This document shows positions 19,059 through 49,040 of a DNA stretch of 64,000 nt, piece by piece. Made by a program: the position numbers and the translations under genes. The DNA is from Klebsiella sp. BIGb0138 (GTDB lineage: Bacteria > Pseudomonadota > Gammaproteobacteria > Enterobacterales > Enterobacteriaceae), in the NCBI RefSeq assembly GCF_004342285.1, contig NZ_SMCV01000006.1, forward strand, positions 124,001 through 188,000, read 5' to 3'. Position 1 is the first letter of the stretch. Every line of letters begins with the position of its first letter. The notes beneath the pieces are model-generated. The model did no database searches. It saw nothing but the letters and a program-made list of their open reading frames with translations, and was not told the DNA's origin.

Positions 19059-20243
19059 CTAAATATCCTTAACTTTACTGGTCAGGAACAGGGTCACCAG
19101 CGAAATCGCCGCAATCACCCAGTAGACGCTGGCGTGACCGTAGCTTTGCGACAGCGCGCCCTGCAGCACCCCGGCCAGAATCACGCCGGTGGAAATACTG
19201 TTGGTAAACAGCGTGGTCGCCGCGCCAGCCCGGCCAGGCATCAGATCCTGGAACCACAGCATGCCGATCCCGGCGACAATGCCGATGAAAATCGCATTGA
19301 ACAGCTGCAGCGCCAGCAGCGCGGTACGGTCGTGAAACACTATCAGGCCGAGATAAAACAGCACCCCGGCCGCGACCGCCGCGACCATCATTTTACGCTT
19401 GCCCCAGCGCTTCACGTAATAACCCGCCAGGATCATCGCCGGAATTTCCAGACCGGCCGCGGTGCCCATTAAGATCCCGGCAAGGCTGTCCGGCAGGCCA
19501 AGATCGCTGCTGATCCACAACGGCATATCGATGATATACATGGTGTTGCAGGTCCACATCAGCGTCGAGGCGATAAACAGCATGCGGACGTTTTTATCCT
19601 GCCAGCCGCCGGCCTGGGCTAGCGCCCCCGCCGTTTCTGAAGGTTGTTCCACCCGGGCAACCGACGGTAGCTTGAACGCGATCAGCACCAGGCTAATGAC
19701 GAAAATCCCGGCGGCAATCGTGAACATAGTGGTAAAGCCATAATTCAGCGCCAGCATAAAGGCCAGCGGCGGACCGATCACCCACGCCAGCGACAGCTGA
19801 GCACGCATGATCGAGCTGAACATCACCACTTCCCGCGCCGAACTATCGGCATATTCCCGCGCCAGGGCGAACAGCTGCGGCATCGCGGCATTGGCTATCG
19901 ACGCCAGCATCACGCCGCAGGTGATCAAGGTTAAGTAGTGACGATTAAAGGCAAACAGCAGCGCATTGCCTACCGCCATCAGGCAGCAGAACATGATCAG
20001 CCGACGGCGATCGCCCTGACTATCGGACCGTTTCGCCAGCGCCAGACTCACGAGGATCCCGGCGATCGCGTTAACGGTATAAAACAACCCCACCCAGAAA
20101 GGCTGTGCGCCGACCTCGCGGCTGAGGAATAAGCTGAGGGTAGGTGCCTGCAGCGCGCCCGCTATGCCCATCATAAAAGCAACCAGCATAAAAGCCGCGT
20201 AGATGCCGTTAAGCCGGCGTCCCATCGTCATTAACCACAGCAT
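19059..20243 (-). CDS. setA: Sugar efflux transporter SetA
   Basis: SetA is a 12-helix MFS exporter of sugars and their analogues. The 394 residues closely follow E. coli SetA from MTMGRRLNGIYAAFMLVAF through YWVIAAISLVTLFLTSKVKD. The gene lies directly downstream of sgrS on the same strand, as in E. coli, where both are induced by SgrR during sugar-phosphate stress. The start is at 20243, about 30 bases after the sgrS terminator. Confidence 0.95.
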   Translation of the reverse strand: MLWLMTMGRRLNGIYAAFMLVAFMMGIAGALQAPTLSLFLSREVGAQPFWVGLFYTVNAIAGILVSLALAKRSDSQGDRRRLIMFCCLMAVGNALLFAFNRHYLTLITCGVMLASIANAAMPQLFALAREYADSSAREVVMFSSIMRAQLSLAWVIGPPLAFMLALNYGFTTMFTIAAGIFVISLVLIAFKLPSVARVEQPSETAGALAQAGGWQDKNVRMLFIASTLMWTCNTMYIIDMPLWISSDLGLPDSLAGILMGTAAGLEIPAMILAGYYVKRWGKRKMMVAAVAAGVLFYLGLIVFHDRTALLALQLFNAIFIGIVAGIGMLWFQDLMPGRAGAATTLFTNSISTGVILAGVLQGALSQSYGHASVYWVIAAISLVTLFLTSKVKDI

Positions 20244-20312
20244 GTCATGTCCTTAAAGCACGCGAAGAAAACGAAAAAAGCCAGCAGAAGCAATCTGCTG
20301 GCGGGTGATTTT

Positions 20313-20397
20313 ATACTCTATCTATTTCAAGTGACAGGCAGGCGACCGGAACGTTCTGGCTCAGCCAACTGGCCTGGGTTTGAAAGATGATAAGTAC
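20313..20397 (-). repeat. 85-nt insertion in sgrS with inverted-repeat ends
   Basis: In E. coli GGTGT runs directly into AAAATCACC; here 85 nt separate them. The insert starts GTACTTATCATCTTTCAA and ends TTGAAATAGATAGAGTAT, imperfect inverted repeats of each other, and the middle contains GTTGGCTG and CGCCTGCCTG. From memory this resembles the palindromic MITE-like repeats scattered in enterobacterial genomes. The insertion point is in the loop of the small GGTG/CACC hairpin, so the pairing segment and terminator stay intact. Mobile origin is inference. Confidence 0.65.
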
Positions 20398-20431
20398 ACA
20401 CCAATACTCAGTCACACATGATGTAGGCAAG

Positions 20432-20584
20432 TCAATGATCAGAGGTCGGTGACGTAACTCCCCACTGCATCAGTTCGCCGAGTATTTCCTGCTGTCTCCC
20501 TGCCATCAGGCGGGCCAGCCATGACGCGTCCTGCGTCGCAGAAAAGTAGCGTTGGTAAAACTGTTTCGCGGTTGACCTCATCAT
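20432..20584 (-). CDS. sgrT: Small protein SgrT, inhibitor of glucose transport
   Basis: SgrT is the small protein encoded in the 5' part of SgrS that blocks the glucose permease PtsG. This 50-codon frame starts with two ATGs (20584 and 20581) behind AGGAGG at ideal spacing. It shares FYQRYFSAT and LMQW with the 43-residue E. coli peptide (FYQHYFTAT, LMQW). It is a little longer, with the extra residues mainly at the C-terminus (GVTSPTSDH). The stop lies 15 bases before the ptsG-pairing segment. Confidence 0.88.
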   Translation of the reverse strand: MMRSTAKQFYQRYFSATQDASWLARLMAGRQQEILGELMQWGVTSPTSDH

Positions 20585-20671
20585 ATTCACCTCCTCGCTT
20601 CATCGGAATCTATTATTGGCCTAATATAGGGATTAATAAATTGCTGAGTTTTCATCAGGAGTTCCCCTTTT

Positions 20672-22327
20672 ATGTCTTCCGCTCGTCTGCAACAACAGTT
20701 CATCCGCTTATGGCAATGCTGCGACGGTCAATCGCAGGAGACGACCCTCAACGAGCTGGCGGAGATGCTGTGCTGCTCGCGCCGACATATGCGCACGCTG
20801 CTGAACATGATGGAAGAACGCGGCTGGTTAACCTGGAAGGCGGAAGCCGGACGCGGCAAGCGTTCAAAGCTGGCTTTCCTTTATACCGGGCTGGCGTTGC
20901 AGCAGCAGAGGGCGGAGGATCTGCTTGAGCAGGATCGTATCGATCAGCTGGTGCAGCTGGTCGGCGATAAAGCCGCGGTACGTCAGATGCTGGTCTCGCA
21001 CCTTGGCCGCAGCTTCCGTCAGGGGCGGCATATTCTGCGCGTGCTCTACTACCGGCCAATGAAAAATCTGTTGCCCGGCAGCGCGCTGCGCCGCTCGGAA
21101 AACCATATCGCCAGGCAGATCTTCAGCGCCCTGACGCGGGTAAATGAGGAAAACGGGGAACTGGAAGCCGATATTGCCCACCATTGGCAGCAGCTTTCAC
21201 CGACCCACTGGCGCTTTTTTCTGCGCCCCGGCATTCATTTTCACCACGGCAGAGAGCTGGAGATGGAGGATGTCATCGCCTCTTTGCAACGCAGCAATAC
21301 CCTGCCGCTCTACTCACACATCGCGCGTATTGTCTCGCCCACGGCCTGGACGCTGGATATTCATCTTACCCAACCCGATCGCTGGCTACCGTGGCTGTTG
21401 GGGCAGGTTTCGGCGGTGGTGCTGCCGCGTGAATGGCAGTCGATGGCAAACTTCGCCAGCATGCCGGTAGGCACCGGCCCTTATGCGGTGGTGCGCAACA
21501 ATCAAAATCAGCTGAAGATCCACGCCTTCGACGACTATTTCGGCTACCGGGCGTTAATCGATGAGGTTAACGTCTGGGTGCTCCCGGAGATTAGCGACGA
21601 ACCCAACGGCGGCTTAACCCTGCAGGGGACAACGCACAGTGAGAAAGCGATAGAGAGCCGTCTTGAGGAAGGGTGCTATTACCTGCTGTTTGATGCGCGC
21701 AGCCCGCTTGGCGGCAACGCCGCGGTGCGCCAGTGGCTGAGCTATCTGTTCCAGCCTGCGAACCTGCTTTACCACGCGGGCGAACACTACCAGGGCAACT
21801 GGTTTCCGGCCTATGGCCTGCTGCCCCGCTGGCACCACGCCCGCAGCCACGTCTGTGAAAAACCGCCGGGTCTGGAATCCGTCACCCTGACCTATTACCA
21901 GGACCACGTCGAGCACCGCGTCATGGGCGGGATCATGGCGACGCTGCTGGCGGAGCACGAGGTGAAGCTGGTGATTCAGGAGCTGGAGTATGAAGAGTGG
22001 CACCGCGGCGATGTCGTCAGCGACGTCTGGTTGAACAGCGCCAACTTTACCCTGCCGATTGATTTTTCTCTTTTCGCCTGGCTGTATGAAGTCCCTCTGA
22101 TCCGGCATTGTATCCCCATCGACTGGGAGAAGGACGCCAGCCGCTGGCATGCGGGCGAGTTAAACCCGGCCACCTGGAGCCAGCAGCTGCTGGCCAGTCA
22201 AACCATCGTCCCGCTGATCCACCACTGGCTGATGATCCAGGGGCAGCGCAGTATGCGCGGCGTGAGAATGAATACCCTCGGCTGGTTTGATTTCAAATCC
22301 GCATGGTTTGCGCCGCCGGAGCCGTAG
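20672..22327 (+). CDS. sgrR: Transcriptional activator SgrR
   Basis: SgrR activates sgrS when sugar phosphates accumulate. The 551-residue protein has an N-terminal winged helix-turn-helix region (about residues 5-110, [20 protein letters not shown]) and a C-terminal solute-binding-protein-like domain (about 165-450). It is divergent from sgrS, with 67 bases between the two starts, so both promoters share this short gap. AGGAG lies 10 bases upstream of the ATG. Confidence 0.96.
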
Positions 22328-32050: not shown

Positions 32051-34408
32051 GTGACCCAGCCACGAGAAGGTTTCTTACTGACCCGTCACTGGCGGGATAC
32101 CCCGCAGGGCACCGAGCTGTCCTTCTGGCTGGCGACAGACGACGGCCCGCTTCAGATCACCCTCCCGCCGCAGGAGTCGGTGGCGTTTATTCCCGAGGCG
32201 CAGCGCGCCCAGGTAGAACGTCTGCTGCAGGACGAAAACGGCCAACGGCTTGCCCCGCTCAGCTTAAAAGACTTTCACCGTCAGCCGGTTTTTGGCCTCT
32301 ATTGCCGCGCTCATCGTCAGCTGATGCGTCTGGAAAAGAAGCTGCGTGAAAACGGCATCACCGTTTATGAAGCCGATATCCGCCCGCCGGAACGCTACCT
32401 GATGGAGCGCTTTATTACCGCTCCGGTTTGGGTCGAAGGTGACGCGCGCGGATCGCAGCTGGTCAACGCCCGCATGAAGCCCAATCCGCGCTATCGGCCG
32501 CCGCTGAAGTGGGTTTCGCTGGATATTGAAACCAGCCGCCACGGCGAGCTGTACTGCATCGGGCTGGAAGGCTGCGGGCAACGGGTGGTCTACATGCTCG
32601 GGCCGGAACCGGCGATCTCTCCCGCCGTCGATTTCCAGCTGGAGTACGTCTCCAGCCGCCCGCAGCTGCTGGAAAAACTCAACGCCTGGTTTGCCGAGCA
32701 CGATCCGGACGTGCTGATTGGCTGGAACGTCATCCAGTTCGATTTGCGCGTCCTGCAAAAGCATGCCGAGCGCTACCGCATTCCGCTACTCCTCGGCCGC
32801 GGCAACAGCGAGCTGGAGTGGCGCGAGCACGGGTTTAAAAACGGCGTCTTCTTCGCCCAGGCCAACGGCCGCCCGATCGTTGACGGCATCGAAGCGCTGA
32901 AGTCCGCCTTCTGGAATTTCTCCTCTTTTTCCCTTGAAGCGGTGGCCCGCGAACTGCTCGGCGAAGGGAAAGCCATTGATAACCCGTGGGATCGGATGGA
33001 CGAAATCGACCGCCGCTTCCACGAAGATAAGCCCGCGCTGGCGACCTACAATCTGCAGGACTGCGAGCTGGTGACCCGCATCTTCCATAAAACGGAGATC
33101 ATGCCGTTTCTGCTGGAGCGCGCCACGGTGAACGGCCTGCCGGTAGACCGCCACGGCGGATCCGTCGCCGCTTTCAGCCATCTCTATTTTCCGCGCATGC
33201 ACCGGCTGGGCTACGTCGCTCCCAATCTCGGCGAGGTCCCGCCGCAGGCCAGCCCCGGCGGCTATGTGATGGATTCGCGTCCCGGCCTCTATGATTCGGT
33301 GCTGGTGCTGGATTACAAAAGCCTCTACCCCTCCATTATCCGCACCTTTTTGATCGACCCGGTGGGGCTTATCGAAGGGATGGCGCAGCCGGACAACGAA
33401 CATAGCACCGAGGGGTTTCTCGGCGCTCGCTTTTCGCGCCGCAATCACTGTCTGCCGGGAATTGTCGGCCAAATCTGGCACGGCCGCGACGAGGCGAAAC
33501 AGCAAAAAAATAAACCGCTTTCACAGGCGCTGAAGATCATCATGAACGCCTTCTATGGCGTACTCGGCACCAGCGCCTGCCGTTTTTTCGATCCTCGCCT
33601 GGCCTCCTCGATCACCATGCGCGGGCATGCCATTATGCGCCAGACCAAAGCGCTGATTGAGTCGCAGGGCTATGAGGTGATTTATGGCGATACCGACTCC
33701 ACCTTTGTCTGGCTCAAACGCCCCCATGATGAAGAGGAAGCGGCACAAATCGGGCGCTCGCTGGTAGCGTTCGTCAACGACTGGTGGGCCAGAGAACTGC
33801 GCAAAGATCGGCTTACCAGCACCCTGGAGCTGGAGTTTGAAACCCATTTCAGCCGTTTTTTGATGCCGACCATTCGCGGCGCCGATACCGGCAGCAAAAA
33901 ACGCTATGCCGGGATGATTCAGGAGGGTGACGCGCAGCGGATGGTGTTTAAAGGGCTGGAAACGGTACGAACCGACTGGACGCCGCTGGCGCAGCAGTTT
34001 CAGCAGGAGTTATATCTGCGCATTTTCCGTCACCAGCCATACCGCGACTACATCCTGGAGACCATTGATAAGCTGATGAGCGGGGAACTCGACGACCGGC
34101 TGATCTATCGTAAGCGCCTGCGCCGTCCGCTGGCGGAGTATCAACGCAACGTGCCGCCGCACGTCCGCGCGGCCAGACTGGCGGACGAGCAAAACGTCAG
34201 GCTGGGCCGGCCGCAGCAGTACCAGCAGCGCGGCAGCATCAAGTACGTCTGGACCACCAGCGGACCGGAACCGGTGGATTATCAACTATCGCCGCTGGAT
34301 TATGAGCACTATTTGTCAAAACAATTACAGCCGGTGGCGGAAGGAATACTTCCCTTTGTCGACGATGATTTTGCTACAATAGTGACAGGGCAACTGGGGC
34401 TATTTTGA
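32051..34408 (+). CDS. polB: DNA polymerase II
   Basis: Pol II is the SOS-induced B-family polymerase with proofreading activity, used in replication restart and lesion bypass. The 785 residues have the exonuclease motif with DIE at 158-160, polymerase motif [10 protein letters not shown] and motif C YGDTDSTF (near 547), and the usual C-terminal GQLGLF. The start is a GTG at 32051, as expected from alignment with E. coli (783 residues). A LexA box lies upstream. Confidence 0.97.
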
Positions 34409-34596
34409 TTTCCTCGCAATTTCAATTTCCAGCCAACACATCTGCAAATTGAAGGGTGACGAGGACGTGACGAACGACCTGCCATCCAGTAATATAGCGC
34501 CCTTTCCATTCCTGGACCCAATCTTGATCTCTCTCCGACCATTCCGGAGATGATCAACTATTGCCTGCAATTTAAGAACTCAAGAGCTGAACATAT

Positions 34597-37503
34597 ATGC
34601 CTTTTACACTTGGTCAACGCTGGATTAGCGACACAGAGAGCGAACTGGGATTAGGGACGGTAGTCGCGCTGGATGCGCGCATGGTGACCCTGCTTTTCCC
34701 CGCCATCGGCGAAAACCGTCTGTACGCGCGTAACGATTCACCTATCACCCGCGTGATGTTTAACCCGGGTGATACCATCACCAGCCACGAAGGCTGGCAG
34801 CTCCAGGTTGACGAAGTTAATGAAGAAAACGGCCTGCTGGCCTACACCGGTACCCGTCTCGACACCGAAGAAACCAACGTCACGCTGCGCGAAGTGCTGC
34901 TCGACAGCAAACTGGTGTTCAGCAAACCGCAGGACCGCCTGTTTGCCGGGCAGATTGACCGTATGGACCGCTTTGCGCTGCGCTATCGCGCGCGTAAATA
35001 TCAGAGCGAACAGTACCGCATGCCGTGGAGCGGCCTGCGCGGGCAGCGTACCAGCCTGATCCCGCATCAGCTGCACATCGCCCATGACGTCGGCCGTCGC
35101 CACGCGCCGCGCGTCCTGCTGGCGGATGAGGTCGGCCTCGGTAAAACAATTGAAGCCGGGATGATCCTCCATCAACAGCTGCTCGCCGGCGCCGCCGAGC
35201 GCGTGCTGATCATCGTGCCGGAAACCCTGCAACACCAGTGGCTGGTCGAAATGCTGCGCCGCTTCAACCTGCGTTTCTCCCTGTTCGACGACGAGCGCTA
35301 TGCCGAAGCCCAGCACGACGCCTATAACCCGTTCGAAACCGAGCAGCTGGTGATCTGCTCGCTGGATTTCGTACGCCGCAGCAAGCAGCGTCTTGAGCAC
35401 CTGTGCGATGCCGAATGGGACCTGATGATCGTCGATGAAGCGCATCACCTGGTGTGGAGCGAAGAGGCGCCGAGCCGCGAATACCAGGCCATTGAACAGC
35501 TGGCCGAGCGCGTGCCGGGCGTTCTGCTGTTGACCGCCACGCCGGAACAGCTGGGTATGGAAAGCCACTTCGCCCGCCTGCGCCTGCTGGATCCTAACCG
35601 GTTCCACGACTTTGAGCTGTTCGTCGAAGAGCAACAAAACTACCGTCCGGTGGCCGATGCCGTCGCCCTGCTGCTGGCAGGCAACAAGCTGAGCGACGCC
35701 GAACTCAACACCCTGGGCGATCTGATCGGCGAGCAGGATATCGAGCCGCTGCTGCAGGCCGCTAACAGCGACCGCGACGACGCGCAGGCCGCCCGCCAGG
35801 AGCTGGTCTCCATGCTGATGGACCGCCACGGCACCAGCCGCGTTCTGTTCCGTAATACCCGCAACGGCGTCAAAGGCTTCCCGAAACGCGAGCTGCATAC
35901 CATTCGTCTGCCGCTGCCAACCCAGTACCAGACGGCGATTAAAGTCTCCGGTATTATGGGCGCGCGTAAAACCGCGGAAGAGCGCGCGCGCGACATGCTC
36001 TATCCGGAGCAGATTTATCAGGAATTTGAAGGCGATAGCGGTACCTGGTGGAACTTCGACCCGCGCGTGGAGTGGTTGATGGGCTACCTGACCAGCCACC
36101 GCTCGCAGAAGGTGCTGGTGATCTGTGCGAAAGCCGCCACCGCGCTTCAGCTGGAGCAGGTACTGCGCGAGCGCGAAGGCATCCGCGCGGCGGTATTCCA
36201 TGAAGGTATGTCGATCATCGAACGCGACCGCGCCGCCGCATGGTTTGCCGAAGAAGATACCGGCGCGCAGGTGCTGCTGTGTTCTGAAATTGGTTCCGAA
36301 GGTCGCAACTTCCAGTTTGCCAGCAACCTGGTGATGTTTGACCTGCCGTTCAACCCGGATCTGCTGGAGCAGCGTATCGGCCGTCTCGACCGTATCGGCC
36401 AGGCGCACGATATCCAGATCCACGTGCCGTATCTGGAAAGAACCGCGCAATCCGTACTGGTTCGCTGGTATCACGAAGGGCTGGATGCGTTTGAGCACAC
36501 CTGTCCGACCGGGCGCACCGTTTACGATAGCGTGCATAACGAACTGATTAACTATCTTGCCGCGCCGGAAACCACCGATGGCTTCGATGAGCTAATCAAA
36601 TCCTGCCGCCAGCAGCACGATGCGCTGAAGGCGCAGCTGGAACAGGGGCGCGACCGGCTGCTGGAAATCCACTCCAACGGCGGCGAGCAGGCCCAGGCGT
36701 TAGCCGAAAGCATTGAAGAGCAGGATGACGATACCAGCCTGATCGCCTTCGCCATGAATCTGTTCGATATTGTCGGCATCAACCAGGACGATCGCGGCGA
36801 AAACCTGATCGTGCTGACGCCATCCGACCATATGCTGGTACCGGATTTCCCGGGCCTGCCGGAAGACGGCTGCACCATCACCTTTGAGCGCGATGTCGCG
36901 CTGTCCCGCGAAGATGCGCAGTTCGTCACCTGGGAGCACCCGCTGATTATCAACGGCCTGGATCTGATCCTCTCCGGCGATACCGGCAGCAGCACCATCT
37001 CCCTGCTGAAGAACAAGGCGCTGCCGGTCGGCACGCTGCTGCTGGAACTGATTTACGTCGTGGAGGCTCAGGCGCCGAAGCAGCTGCAGCTTAACCGCTT
37101 CCTGCCCGCCACGCCGGTGCGCATGCTGCTGGATAAAAACGGCAATAACCTCGCCGGCCAGGTGGAATTTGAGAACTTCAACCGCCAGCTGAGCGCCGTC
37201 AACCGTCATACCGGCAGCAAGCTGGTCAACGCGGTGCAGCAGGACGTTCATGCCATCCTGCAGCTCGGCGAAGCCCAGGTCGCTAAAGCCGCGCAGGCGC
37301 TGATCGACGCGGCCCGCGATGAAGCCAACGACAAGCTGTCGGCGGAGCTGTCCCGTCTGGAAGCGCTGAAAGCGGTTAACCCGAACATCCGCGACGATGA
37401 ACTTGCTGCGATTGAGAGCAACCGTCAGCAGGTGATGGACGCGCTGGCGCAGGCGGGCTGGCGTCTTGACGCGCTGCGCTTAATCGTGGTCACCCACCAG
37501 TAA
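34597..37503 (+). CDS. rapA: RNA polymerase-associated ATPase RapA (HepA)
   Basis: RapA is a SWI2/SNF2-type ATPase that binds RNA polymerase and helps recycle it. The 968 residues equal the E. coli length. Walker A is DEVGLGKT at 177-184, the DEAH box lies in [10 protein letters not shown] near 280, and the helicase C-terminal domain has SEGRNFQFA and [11 protein letters not shown]. The N-terminal Tudor-like domains precede the ATPase. It lies between polB and rluA, as in E. coli. Confidence 0.98.
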
Positions 37504-46638: not shown

Positions 46639-47925
46639 ATGAAGAACTGGAAAACGCTGCTTCTCGGTATCGCCATGATCGCGAATACCAGTTTCGCTGC
46701 CCCACAGGTTGTCGATAAAGTAGCGGCTGTCGTCAATAATGGCGTTGTGCTTGAAAGCGACGTCGATGGTTTGATGCAATCGGTTAAGCTCAACGCTGGC
46801 CAGGCCGGTCAACAGCTGCCGGATGACGCGACCCTACGTCATCAGATCCTCGAAAGACTGATCATGGACCAGATTGTGTTGCAGATGGGCCAGAAGATGG
46901 GCGTGAAAGTCACTGACGATCAGGTCGATCAGGCCATTGCCAACATCGCCAAACAGAACAACATGACGTTGGATCAGATGCGTAGCCGTCTGGCCTATGA
47001 CGGCCTGAACTACAACACCTACCGCAATCAGATCCGTAAAGAGATGCTGATTGCGGAAGTGCGCAACAACGAAGTTCGTCGTCGTATCACCGTCCTGCCG
47101 CAGGAAGTGGAATCTCTGGCCAAACAGATTGGCGATCAGAACGATGCCAGCACCGAACTGAACCTGAGCCACATCCTGATTCCGCTGTCGGAAAACCCGA
47201 CCTCCGACGAAGTTGCCGCCGCTCAGGAACAGGCTAACTCCATCGTTGAACAGGCGCGCGGCGGCGCTGACTTCGGTAAACTGGCGATCACCTACTCTGC
47301 CGACCAGCAGGCGCTGAAAGGCGGCCAGATGGGCTGGGGCCGCATTCAGGAGCTGCCGGGGATCTTCGCACAGGCGCTGAGCACCGCGAAGAAAGGCGAT
47401 ATCGTCGGCCCGATTCGTTCTGGCGTTGGCTTCCACATCCTGAAAATTAACGATATGCGCGGCGGCAGCAAGAATATCTCGGTGACCGAAGTTCACGCGC
47501 GACACATTCTGCTCAAACCCTCGCCGATCATGAACGACGATCAGGCGCGGGCCAAACTGGAGCAGATCGCGGCAGATATTAAGAGCGGCAAAACCACCTT
47601 CGCTAAAGCGGCGAAAGATTTCTCCGAAGATCCGGGCTCAGCCAACCAGGGCGGTGACTTAGGCTGGGCGACGCCGGATATCTTCGACCCTGCCTTCCGC
47701 GATGCGCTGATGCGCCTGAACAAAGGCCAGACCAGCGCTCCGGTTCACTCCTCCTTCGGCTGGCACCTGATTGAACTGCTGGACAGCCGTCAGGTCGACA
47801 GAACCGACGCGGCGCAGAAAGACCGCGCATACCGGATGCTGATGAACCGTAAATTCTCTGAAGAAGCGGCGACCTGGATGCAGGAACAGCGCGCCAGCGC
47901 TTACGTCAAAATTCTGAGCAACTAA
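46639..47925 (+). CDS. surA: Periplasmic chaperone/peptidyl-prolyl isomerase SurA
   Basis: SurA escorts outer membrane proteins, LptD included, across the periplasm. The 428 residues comprise a signal peptide ([20 protein letters not shown]), an N-terminal chaperone domain, two parvulin domains (about 171-272 and 282-382, with [12 protein letters not shown] and [11 protein letters not shown]), and a C-terminal helix. Length and position match E. coli. It follows lptD by 54 bp. Confidence 0.98.
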
Positions 47926-47973
47926 AAAGAACGGCCTCATACACAACGGTATTCAGGGTGTATTGAGGCGGCA

Positions 47974-48023
47974 AGCCAGCCGGTTCCGGGGCGCAACCCA
48001 CCAGGTTGCCGGGCTCGCTGGCT
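47974..48023 (+). repeat. Nested hairpin in the surA-pdxA gap
   Basis: Outer arms AGCCAGC (47974-47980) and GCTGGCT (48017-48023) enclose an inner stem GCAACC (47993-47998) and GGTTGC (48004-48009) with loop CACCA. It ends 37 bases before the pdxA start. No T-run is present, so it looks like leader structure rather than a terminator. Confidence 0.6.
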
Positions 48024-48059
48024 CTGCCAACACAAAGCCCGTCCTGAAGGATGAAGTGT

Positions 48060-49040
48060 ATGAACCGAGTTGTTATCACCCCTGGCGAGCCCGCCGGAAT
48101 TGGCCCCGACCTCGTGGTAGAGCTTGCGCAGCGCGACTGGCCGGTAGAGCTGGTGGTGTGCGCTGACGGCGCCCTGTTATCCGACCGAGCCCAACGGCTC
48201 GGTCTTCCTTTATCTCTCCTGCCCTATGATCCTTCTCTCCCCGCCGCCGCACAGCGCGCCGGCACCCTGACGCTTCTCCCCGTCGCCCTGAACGCTCCTG
48301 TCGAAGCGGGCGTCCTGAACGTGGAGAACGGCAGCTATGTGGTAGAGACGCTGGCTCGCGCCTGCGACGGCTGCCTGCACGGCGAATTTGCGGCATTGAT
48401 TACCGGGCCGGTACATAAAGGCAATATCAATGACGCCGGCATCGCCTTTACCGGCCATACCGAGTTCTTCGAAGAGCGCTCCCATGCCAGCAAAGTGGTG
48501 ATGATGCTGGCGACGGAAGAGCTGCGCGTCGCGCTGGCGACCACCCATCTGCCGCTGAAGGCGATCAGCGAGGCGATCACCCCCGATTTGCTGCGCGAAG
48601 TGATCGCCATTCTGGACCACGACCTGCGGCATAAATTCGGTATCGCCCGGCCGCACGTGCTGGTGTGCGGCCTGAACCCGCATGCGGGCGAAGGGGGTCA
48701 CATGGGGACGGAAGAGATCGATACCATTATTCCGGTGCTGGAAGAGATGCGCGCTCAGGGCATCAATCTGAGCGGCCCGCTACCGGCCGATACCCTGTTT
48801 CAGCCCAAATATCTCGACAATGCCGATGCGGTACTCGCGATGTACCACGATCAGGGCCTTCCCGTGCTAAAATACCAGGGCTTTGGCCGTGGCGTGAATA
48901 TTACGCTCGGTTTACCTTTTATTCGAACCTCCGTTGACCACGGTACCGCGCTTGAACTGGCGGGCCAGGGAAAAGCGGATGTCGGCAGTTTTATCACGGC
49001 GCTTAATCTCGCCATCAAAATGATTGTTAATACGCAATGA
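48060..49040 (+). CDS. pdxA: 4-hydroxythreonine-4-phosphate dehydrogenase PdxA
   Basis: PdxA oxidises 4-phosphohydroxy-L-threonine in the DXP-dependent pyridoxal phosphate pathway. The 326-residue reading from 48060 ([17 protein letters not shown]) has AAGGA at good spacing; the ATG three codons earlier sits too close to it. Metal-binding and active-site segments are [29 protein letters not shown] and [12 protein letters not shown]. The stop overlaps rsmA by 4 nt. Confidence 0.96.

Follow-up and report, generated by a model that had tools for sequence, protein, structure and literature searches.

SgrS is a model Hfq-dependent, dual-function small RNA (sRNA) with a role in the response to sugar stress. 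Its Hfq module, as defined for E. coli in an excerpt of PMC4509938, spans nt 179-227, with the terminator hairpin and the 3' poly-U as parts of it. The elements known as ERIC (enterobacterial repetitive intergenic consensus), IRU or RU-1 are described as 127 bp long with TA ends and 7-bp terminal repeats (PMC2229807, excerpt). The same excerpt cites Rickettsia, whose tmRNA and RNase P RNA contain inserted palindromic elements (Ogata 2002, via PMC2229807), and in Coxiella the sRNAs QMITE1/2 are reported to be derived from MITEs (PMC10969869, excerpt).

The locus described here resembles each of these systems in part. With the SgrS of E. coli and Salmonella it shares the seed, the small hairpin, the terminator and the synteny with sgrR and a SetA-type gene, and it differs in a loop that is 57-168 nt longer in 20 genomes of Klebsiella and Raoultella, hereafter the genus (lengths after subtraction of the 3 nt of the insert-free relative L044). 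Its likeness to ERIC/IRU/RU-1 lies in the ends TATACTC...GAGTATA, the TA termini and the long stem, and extends to the internal sequence in near-full-length copies at the SgrS site and to dispersed copies in the genus; unlike a typical member, the copy studied here has been reduced to 85 nt and is part of a small RNA, not of plain intergenic DNA or an mRNA end. As with the Rickettsia elements, to the extent that the excerpt describes them, a small palindromic mobile element sits in a conserved structural RNA and is apparently tolerated, but the family and the host are others, and here a base-pairing sRNA has received more than one independent insertion. The Coxiella case, as excerpted, likewise has MITE sequence in an sRNA; there the sRNA came from the MITE, whereas here an old sRNA received one. 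ERIC and MITEs in structural RNAs are already known, and from the sequences compared, ERIC within SgrS appears to be a new combination of known kinds. No report of it was found in the open-access literature among the matches listed; a 2009 paper by Horler and Vanderpool, whose title names the size divergence of SgrS, may mention the Klebsiella insert. In the reading that we consider very probable, an ERIC was inserted into the SgrS loop before the Klebsiella-Raoultella split and has been kept since, most likely as a tolerated passenger.

Results

The minus strand of the window (the whole stretch of 64,000 nt analysed here, from Klebsiella sp. BIGb0138) matches the Rfam model RF00534 (SgrS) at 20604-20273 with 141.9 bits (E 2.1e-39), well over the gathering score of 37 bits and along the full model (1-232 of 232). 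The surroundings are those of the SgrS family, with a divergent sgrR on one side and a SetA-type gene downstream. We call the latter setA from its position, the SetB equivalog model scoring below its cut-off. The features of the locus are as follows.

19059..20243, minus strand: SetA/SetB-type sugar efflux transporter gene, 3' of sgrS (NCBIfam TIGR00899, 547.1 bits, over cut-off)
20273..20604, minus strand: SgrS small RNA, predicted 332 nt (RF00534 match, full model)
20274..20302, minus strand: intrinsic terminator hairpin and T6 tract (terminator scan, fold)
20304..20307, minus strand: CACC, 3' strand of the small hairpin (folds)
20313..20397, minus strand: 85-nt insert, apparently a shortened ERIC/IRU, placed in the small-hairpin loop of the Hfq module (RF00534 insertion, ERIC HMM, alignment)
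20313..20330, minus strand: 3' arm of the putative ERIC relic, right terminal repeat (alignment, ERIC HMM, fold)
20380..20397, minus strand: 5' arm of the putative ERIC relic, left terminal repeat (alignment, fold)
20399..20402, minus strand: GGUG, 5' strand of the small hairpin, also within the ptsG pairing (folds)
20399..20417, minus strand: ptsG-pairing segment GTGTGACTGAGTATTGGTG, SgrS nt 188-206 (position and duplex with the ptsG leader of the same genome)
20432..20590, minus strand: SgrT-like ORF, 52 aa, GTG start at 20590 with ATG codons just downstream (ORF list)
20672..22327, plus strand: sgrR, divergent activator gene (NCBIfam NF010149, 1054.3 bits)

A first-pass annotation of this DNA had placed an 85-nt insertion between the pairing segment of SgrS and its terminator, and the model match bears this out: relative to RF00534, 85 nt are inserted at 20313-20397, directly before AAAUCACCC. 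The imperfect inverted-repeat ends are present as written there, and the flanking words said to be adjacent elsewhere are indeed so in insert-free relatives, for instance in L044, where GGTGTAAAATCACC has only 3 nt between GGTG and AATCACC. The pairing segment and the terminator, which had been called recognisable, are so by the full-model match, the ptsG duplex and the terminator scan; on the minus strand the scan reports a hairpin at 20302-20280 with a T6 tail and no premature terminator ahead of the insert (20303-20604). SgrT had been named as well, and here the outcome is divided, as a 52-aa ORF is found at the expected position but has no match to an NCBIfam model; it is named from its position within SgrS only. 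One figure needs correction. The Hfq-binding module had been put at about 331 nt, but that length belongs to the entire predicted RNA (331-332 nt); by the E. coli definition of nt 179-227 excerpted from PMC4509938, the module is here about 85 nt longer, and the terminator hairpin and 3' poly-U of that definition are both kept.

When 20434-20273 is folded with the insert included, the insert forms a single long arm (MFE -52.6 kcal/mol, z -3.68); of 200 dinucleotide shuffles, 1 reaches this stability. In this fold of the 3' module, GGUG is paired with CACC, the ERIC ends are paired above them with 7 of 7 terminal pairs (two of them G-U) and the terminator stands separate. The insert is thereby put on GGUG:CACC, that is, in the loop of the small hairpin before the terminator, where the first-pass annotation had it.

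The insert is called ERIC on the strength of the published description and the ERIC-PCR primers. To search for the family, an ERIC HMM was made from 17 dispersed copies of the genus, with no SgrS copy among them, and used to scan the window together with 66 loci (241 kb); the best match in ten block-shuffled sets, 10.1 bits, gives the noise level. Seven of the 20 SgrS inserts of the genus score 108-119 bits (E 4.3e-32 or better) and nine further ones, the window included, 11.1-29.3 bits, which places 16 of the 20 loci above the best shuffle. Two more (L015, L016) score below it, and for the remaining two (L023, L025) no match was obtained at E 1 or less; such low-scoring or non-matching copies are assigned to ERIC from their position and their alignment with the longer copies. 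The window insert itself reaches 13.7 bits (E 0.0058 in the 241-kb search) through its right 41 nt only (20353-20313, HMM positions 86-126), a score attained by none of 2000 dinucleotide shuffles of the insert (best 1.8 bits), and it aligns with ERIC copies at both ends. In seven genomes of the genus, with an SgrS match of 373 nt, the insert has near full ERIC length. The window copy, at 85 nt, is 41 nt shorter than in this class and does not attain the ERIC length of about 127 bp, and we therefore file it as an ERIC relic and not as an intact element.

With a near-full-length SgrS copy as the query, all 20 genus genomes gave matches, 5-41 per genome among the matches listed (in the seven query-like genomes one of these is the SgrS copy itself); the genome of the window has at least 19 among the matches listed. 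No full-length twin of the 85-nt insert was found in that genome, the next best match being 28 nt at 89%, as would be expected of a decayed copy. Other copies, to which the first-pass annotation had looked, thus exist as relatives of the longer orthologues dispersed across the genus, but not as twins of the 85 nt. The ERIC-PCR primer sequences, taken as an outside standard from an excerpt of PMC6349766, differ from the 17 source copies of the HMM at 1-8 of 22 positions (shuffles: mean 10.3, minimum 5), from the SgrS copy of K. grimontii at 7 and 5 and from that of a Pluralibacter genome (G218) at 3 and 2; the window copy has 10 and 10 mismatches, which is chance level, its primer regions being lost. 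Weak as the window copy is alone, its ERIC identity is firm given the orthologues at the same site and in the same orientation. What had been taken for a small palindromic repeat of enterobacteria can accordingly be named ERIC/IRU, by way of the near-full-length relatives at the same site and the filled and empty sites of G218 and G102 described below. REP/BIME was considered as the repeat family and dropped, since the longer orthologues match ERIC.

RF00534 is present in all 20 genomes of the genus with match lengths of 304-415 nt, and all 20 carry an insert at the same SgrS site and in the same orientation, with outer arms that are alike. Presence in SgrS homologues at large, which had been named as a point against a mobile repeat, thus holds throughout the genus, the insert not being specific to the window, but does not hold for relatives such as L044. 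Measured from GGTG to AATCACC, the inserts are 60, 64, 87-89, 129 and 161-171 nt long, against 3 nt in L044. Their interiors vary in length: the inserts of the window and the Raoultella group measure about 85 nt, those of the K. oxytoca group are near full length, and K. pneumoniae and K. indica have a longer ERIC form. Dispersed ERIC-like copies that match the right half of the K. pneumoniae insert are present in three genomes (G006, G014 and G013), and in K. pneumoniae ATCC 13883 the insert lies within an SgrS of 411 nt. A collection scan with the exact pattern of the insert's right end plus the terminator returned 12 named records, namely K. grimontii, K. indica, K. spallanzanii, K. pneumoniae ATCC 13883, K. 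oxytoca, K. michiganensis, Raoultella terrigena, R. planticola, R. ornithinolytica, 'Enterobacter sp.' 10-1 and JUb54, and a Pluralibacter MAG.

In the setA tree, the 20 genus members form one clade (95/95), within which the window falls with the Raoultella loci (seven rows including two 'Enterobacter sp.' records, 100/96). No empty site was found within the genus among the 20 genomes, insert-free sites occurring only in other genera. The genus probably received a single insertion. That several ERICs entered it at one and the same TA, or that one ERIC took the place of another, seems rather unlikely to us: the long form in K. pneumoniae and K. indica next to the short-form right ends of the K. 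oxytoca and Raoultella groups, together with a setA tree that joins K. indica to the K. oxytoca group, would fit such a course, but site and orientation are the same in all 20 and the outer arms are alike, G019 of the K. pneumoniae group matches a K. oxytoca-type copy (92% over 65 nt, about 17 of which are SgrS flank), and interior conversion would account for the differences that remain among the genus copies.

Insertions into SgrS are found in other genera as well. In a family survey, SgrS was matched in 140 of 295 genomes (E 0.001 or less), and in 104 the match exceeded the cut-off; all 104 over-cut-off matches were scanned for ERIC, each with 300 nt either side. An ERIC lies inside the SgrS RNA in seven of them: four members of the genus (G019 with 29.3 bits, the other three with 13.5-14.8 bits), G218, G061 and G160. 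The pre-terminator loop is the site only in the four genus members and in G218, a Pluralibacter MAG with an ERIC in the same loop and orientation (81.8 bits). Its sister G102 has the empty site GGTGTATAACATCACC, and the two align with a 123-nt gap between flanks whose identity is 95.8% (546 aligned bases) and 92.1% (643 aligned bases); with flanks so nearly identical to those of G102, a chimeric join of unrelated contigs in G218 is unlikely. G218 pairs with the ERIC-free G102 in the setA tree (100/100), and one ERIC origin for G218 and the genus is rejected (p-AU 4.5e-55, two changes). The Pluralibacter ERIC is an independent insertion into the same loop.

The two other ERICs occupy different parts of the RNA. 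In G061 (L055 571-692, 72.5 bits), the element lies between sgrT and the pairing segment, in the opposite orientation to the loop insertions. In G160 (genus g142, L069 713-820), it lies in the sgrS leader ahead of sgrT, just outside the Rfam match, and is flanked on both sides by GAGGAGGT; the congener G254 (L064) has no ERIC there. Since the conserved sgrS 5' end is upstream of this ERIC, it is probably inside the transcript. An unrelated insertion is present in G079 (L039), where the same SgrS loop holds a 64-nt near-perfect hairpin with no match to the ERIC profile and no second copy in its genome beyond its own reverse strand. The insertions of G218, G061, G160 and G079 all spare the seed, the sgrT frame and the terminator.

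Two further observations were made in this survey. In G037 (L149), the SgrS match is directly followed on its 3' side by an ERIC (105.1 bits). In L041, L043 and L047 (genus g56) and in L056 (G127), SgrS is tens of nt longer between sgrT and the pairing segment, and this stretch has no match to the ERIC profile.

In the window, the pairing segment, the terminator and the complementarity to ptsG are intact with the insert in place. The duplex of the seed with the ptsG leader of the same genome has -27.7 kcal/mol, and its pairing extends through GGUG; this leader was located by a ptsG word found in the window's genome, in which the exact E. coli word is absent. Modules from L054 and the 20 genus loci were folded, 21 in total, and each of them forms the terminator stem with a probability of 1.00. 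In 16 of them, GGUG:CACC has a probability of 0.5 or more, and the seed is 78-96% unpaired; the probability is below 0.5 in L008, L009, L017, L021 and L024. Except in L024, the seed of these five is 43-69% paired, with a mean pairing probability with the insert of 0.30-0.42, so that the arm would not be neutral in every fold. In the full-length MFE fold, the seed of the window is paired with part of the sgrT region. Expression of sgrS in exponential phase is reported for K. pneumoniae (PMC3415461, excerpt). According to a review (PMC4021124), seed mutations prevent ptsG regulation by K. pneumoniae SgrS, and its manX regulation works; if the constructs reviewed spanned the whole RNA, such an insert was in them.

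Discussion

In the history that we propose, the common ancestor of Klebsiella and Raoultella would have acquired an ERIC (a MITE of about 127 bp with TA ends) in the GGUG...CACC hairpin loop, downstream of the ptsG-pairing segment and ahead of the terminator. The element would have been retained at this site, its interior being then shortened, kept near full or present in a longer form according to the group. Genus-wide retention, if such it is, would be expected of an element without easy precise excision. In the RNA, the ERIC is predicted to fold back on itself and to add an arm to the loop. With the seed and the GGUG:CACC stem still in place, and likewise the terminator and the U-tail, SgrS should remain able to bind Hfq and to pair with ptsG. 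Pairing with ptsG would open GGUG:CACC while the ERIC arm keeps its own hairpin, with which the co-fold agrees. The RNA is presumably transcribed as a whole and the insert presumably does no harm; it may have an effect on RNA half-life or on Hfq binding. As far as the sequences go, nothing was found that would support a regulatory role of the window insert's own.

It is unlikely, in our estimate, that the arm has been put to use, its stem shielding the loop from nucleases or positioning Hfq, or its ends tuning the accessibility of the seed. The retention of the insert in 20 of 20 genus genomes would suit such a role, as would the predicted pairing of seed and insert in the four modules named above and the count of terminal-repeat pairs formed, 111 of 119 for 17 SgrS copies (L054 plus 16 of the 20 in the genus) as against 104 of 119 for 17 dispersed ones. 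When arms are swapped among the SgrS copies, however, 92% still pair, which indicates sequence similarity and not covariation; the swap lowers pairing to 70% among the dispersed copies, which do covary. In the four genomes compared, moreover, the SgrS copies are 83% identical at their ends and 76% in the interior, against 88% and 83% for an orthologous ERIC elsewhere. One-sided gaps in the SgrS copies sum to 58 over the six pairs, the orthologous ERIC having none, and across the genus the interior lengths differ widely. Selection on the arm is thus not seen as covariation in the arm swap, nor, for the four genomes, as extra conservation relative to an orthologous dispersed ERIC.

Processing caused by the insert, with RNase III or RNase E cutting the ERIC stem and the ends of the working RNA differing from those of the predicted 332 nt, is quite improbable. 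It has a precedent in Yersinia, where ERIC at the 3' end of a transcript is reported to expose an RNase E site and, depending on orientation, to lower the stability of the RNA (excerpts of PMC2229807 and PMC10969869). A cut in the loop would, however, separate the seed from the terminator hairpin and U-tail that belong to the Hfq module (PMC4509938, excerpt), and K. pneumoniae SgrS is reported to regulate ptsG and manX (PMC4021124).

The ERIC ends share a GAGUAU core with the seed, the 5' UAUACUC being complementary to it and the 3' GAGUAUA repeating it. We think it very unlikely that the arm acts on this account as an internal switch for masking and exposing the seed, its strength being tuned between species by arm length. 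Finally, it is hardly credible that ancestral SgrS already had the extra sequence as an ordinary part and that E. coli and others lost it: its presence in all genus genomes searched would agree, but the near-full-length copies at the site are ERIC by profile with relatives at unrelated loci, sister species in another genus have a filled and an empty site (G218 and G102), and among the 104 family genomes only the four genus members and G218 have ERIC in the SgrS loop.

On the reading of an old, tolerated ERIC insertion, an ERIC fixed in the Hfq module of SgrS, together with the insertions in other genera, would show which parts of an sRNA accept 60-170 nt of foreign DNA. The inserts form a natural set of length variants for probing the small hairpin of the Hfq module. 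Such insertions may also account for part of the reported size divergence of SgrS, and expectations of SgrS size based on E. coli can mislead in Klebsiella.

ERIC copies were also observed near other genes and sRNAs. An Rfam scan of 20 hand-picked loci with dispersed ERIC yielded Ysr276-like, GlmY, RybB and TwoAYGGAY matches, none overlapping ERIC, and thus no other sRNA with an ERIC inside. At one locus of G009 (L103), an ERIC (1501-1630) lies 33 nt downstream of the GlmY sRNA (RF00128; 1664-1811, minus strand). The window itself has a near-full-length ERIC at 47939-48061 (minus strand, 24.8 bits), between an ORF ending at 47925, which we take to be surA-like, and one starting at 48051, presumably pdxA-like, whose listed start it overlaps. 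A partial ERIC end of 19.0 bits is found at 34430-34465 (minus strand), between the ORF ending at 34408 and the ORF starting at 34597, which we assume to be polB-like and rapA-like, respectively.
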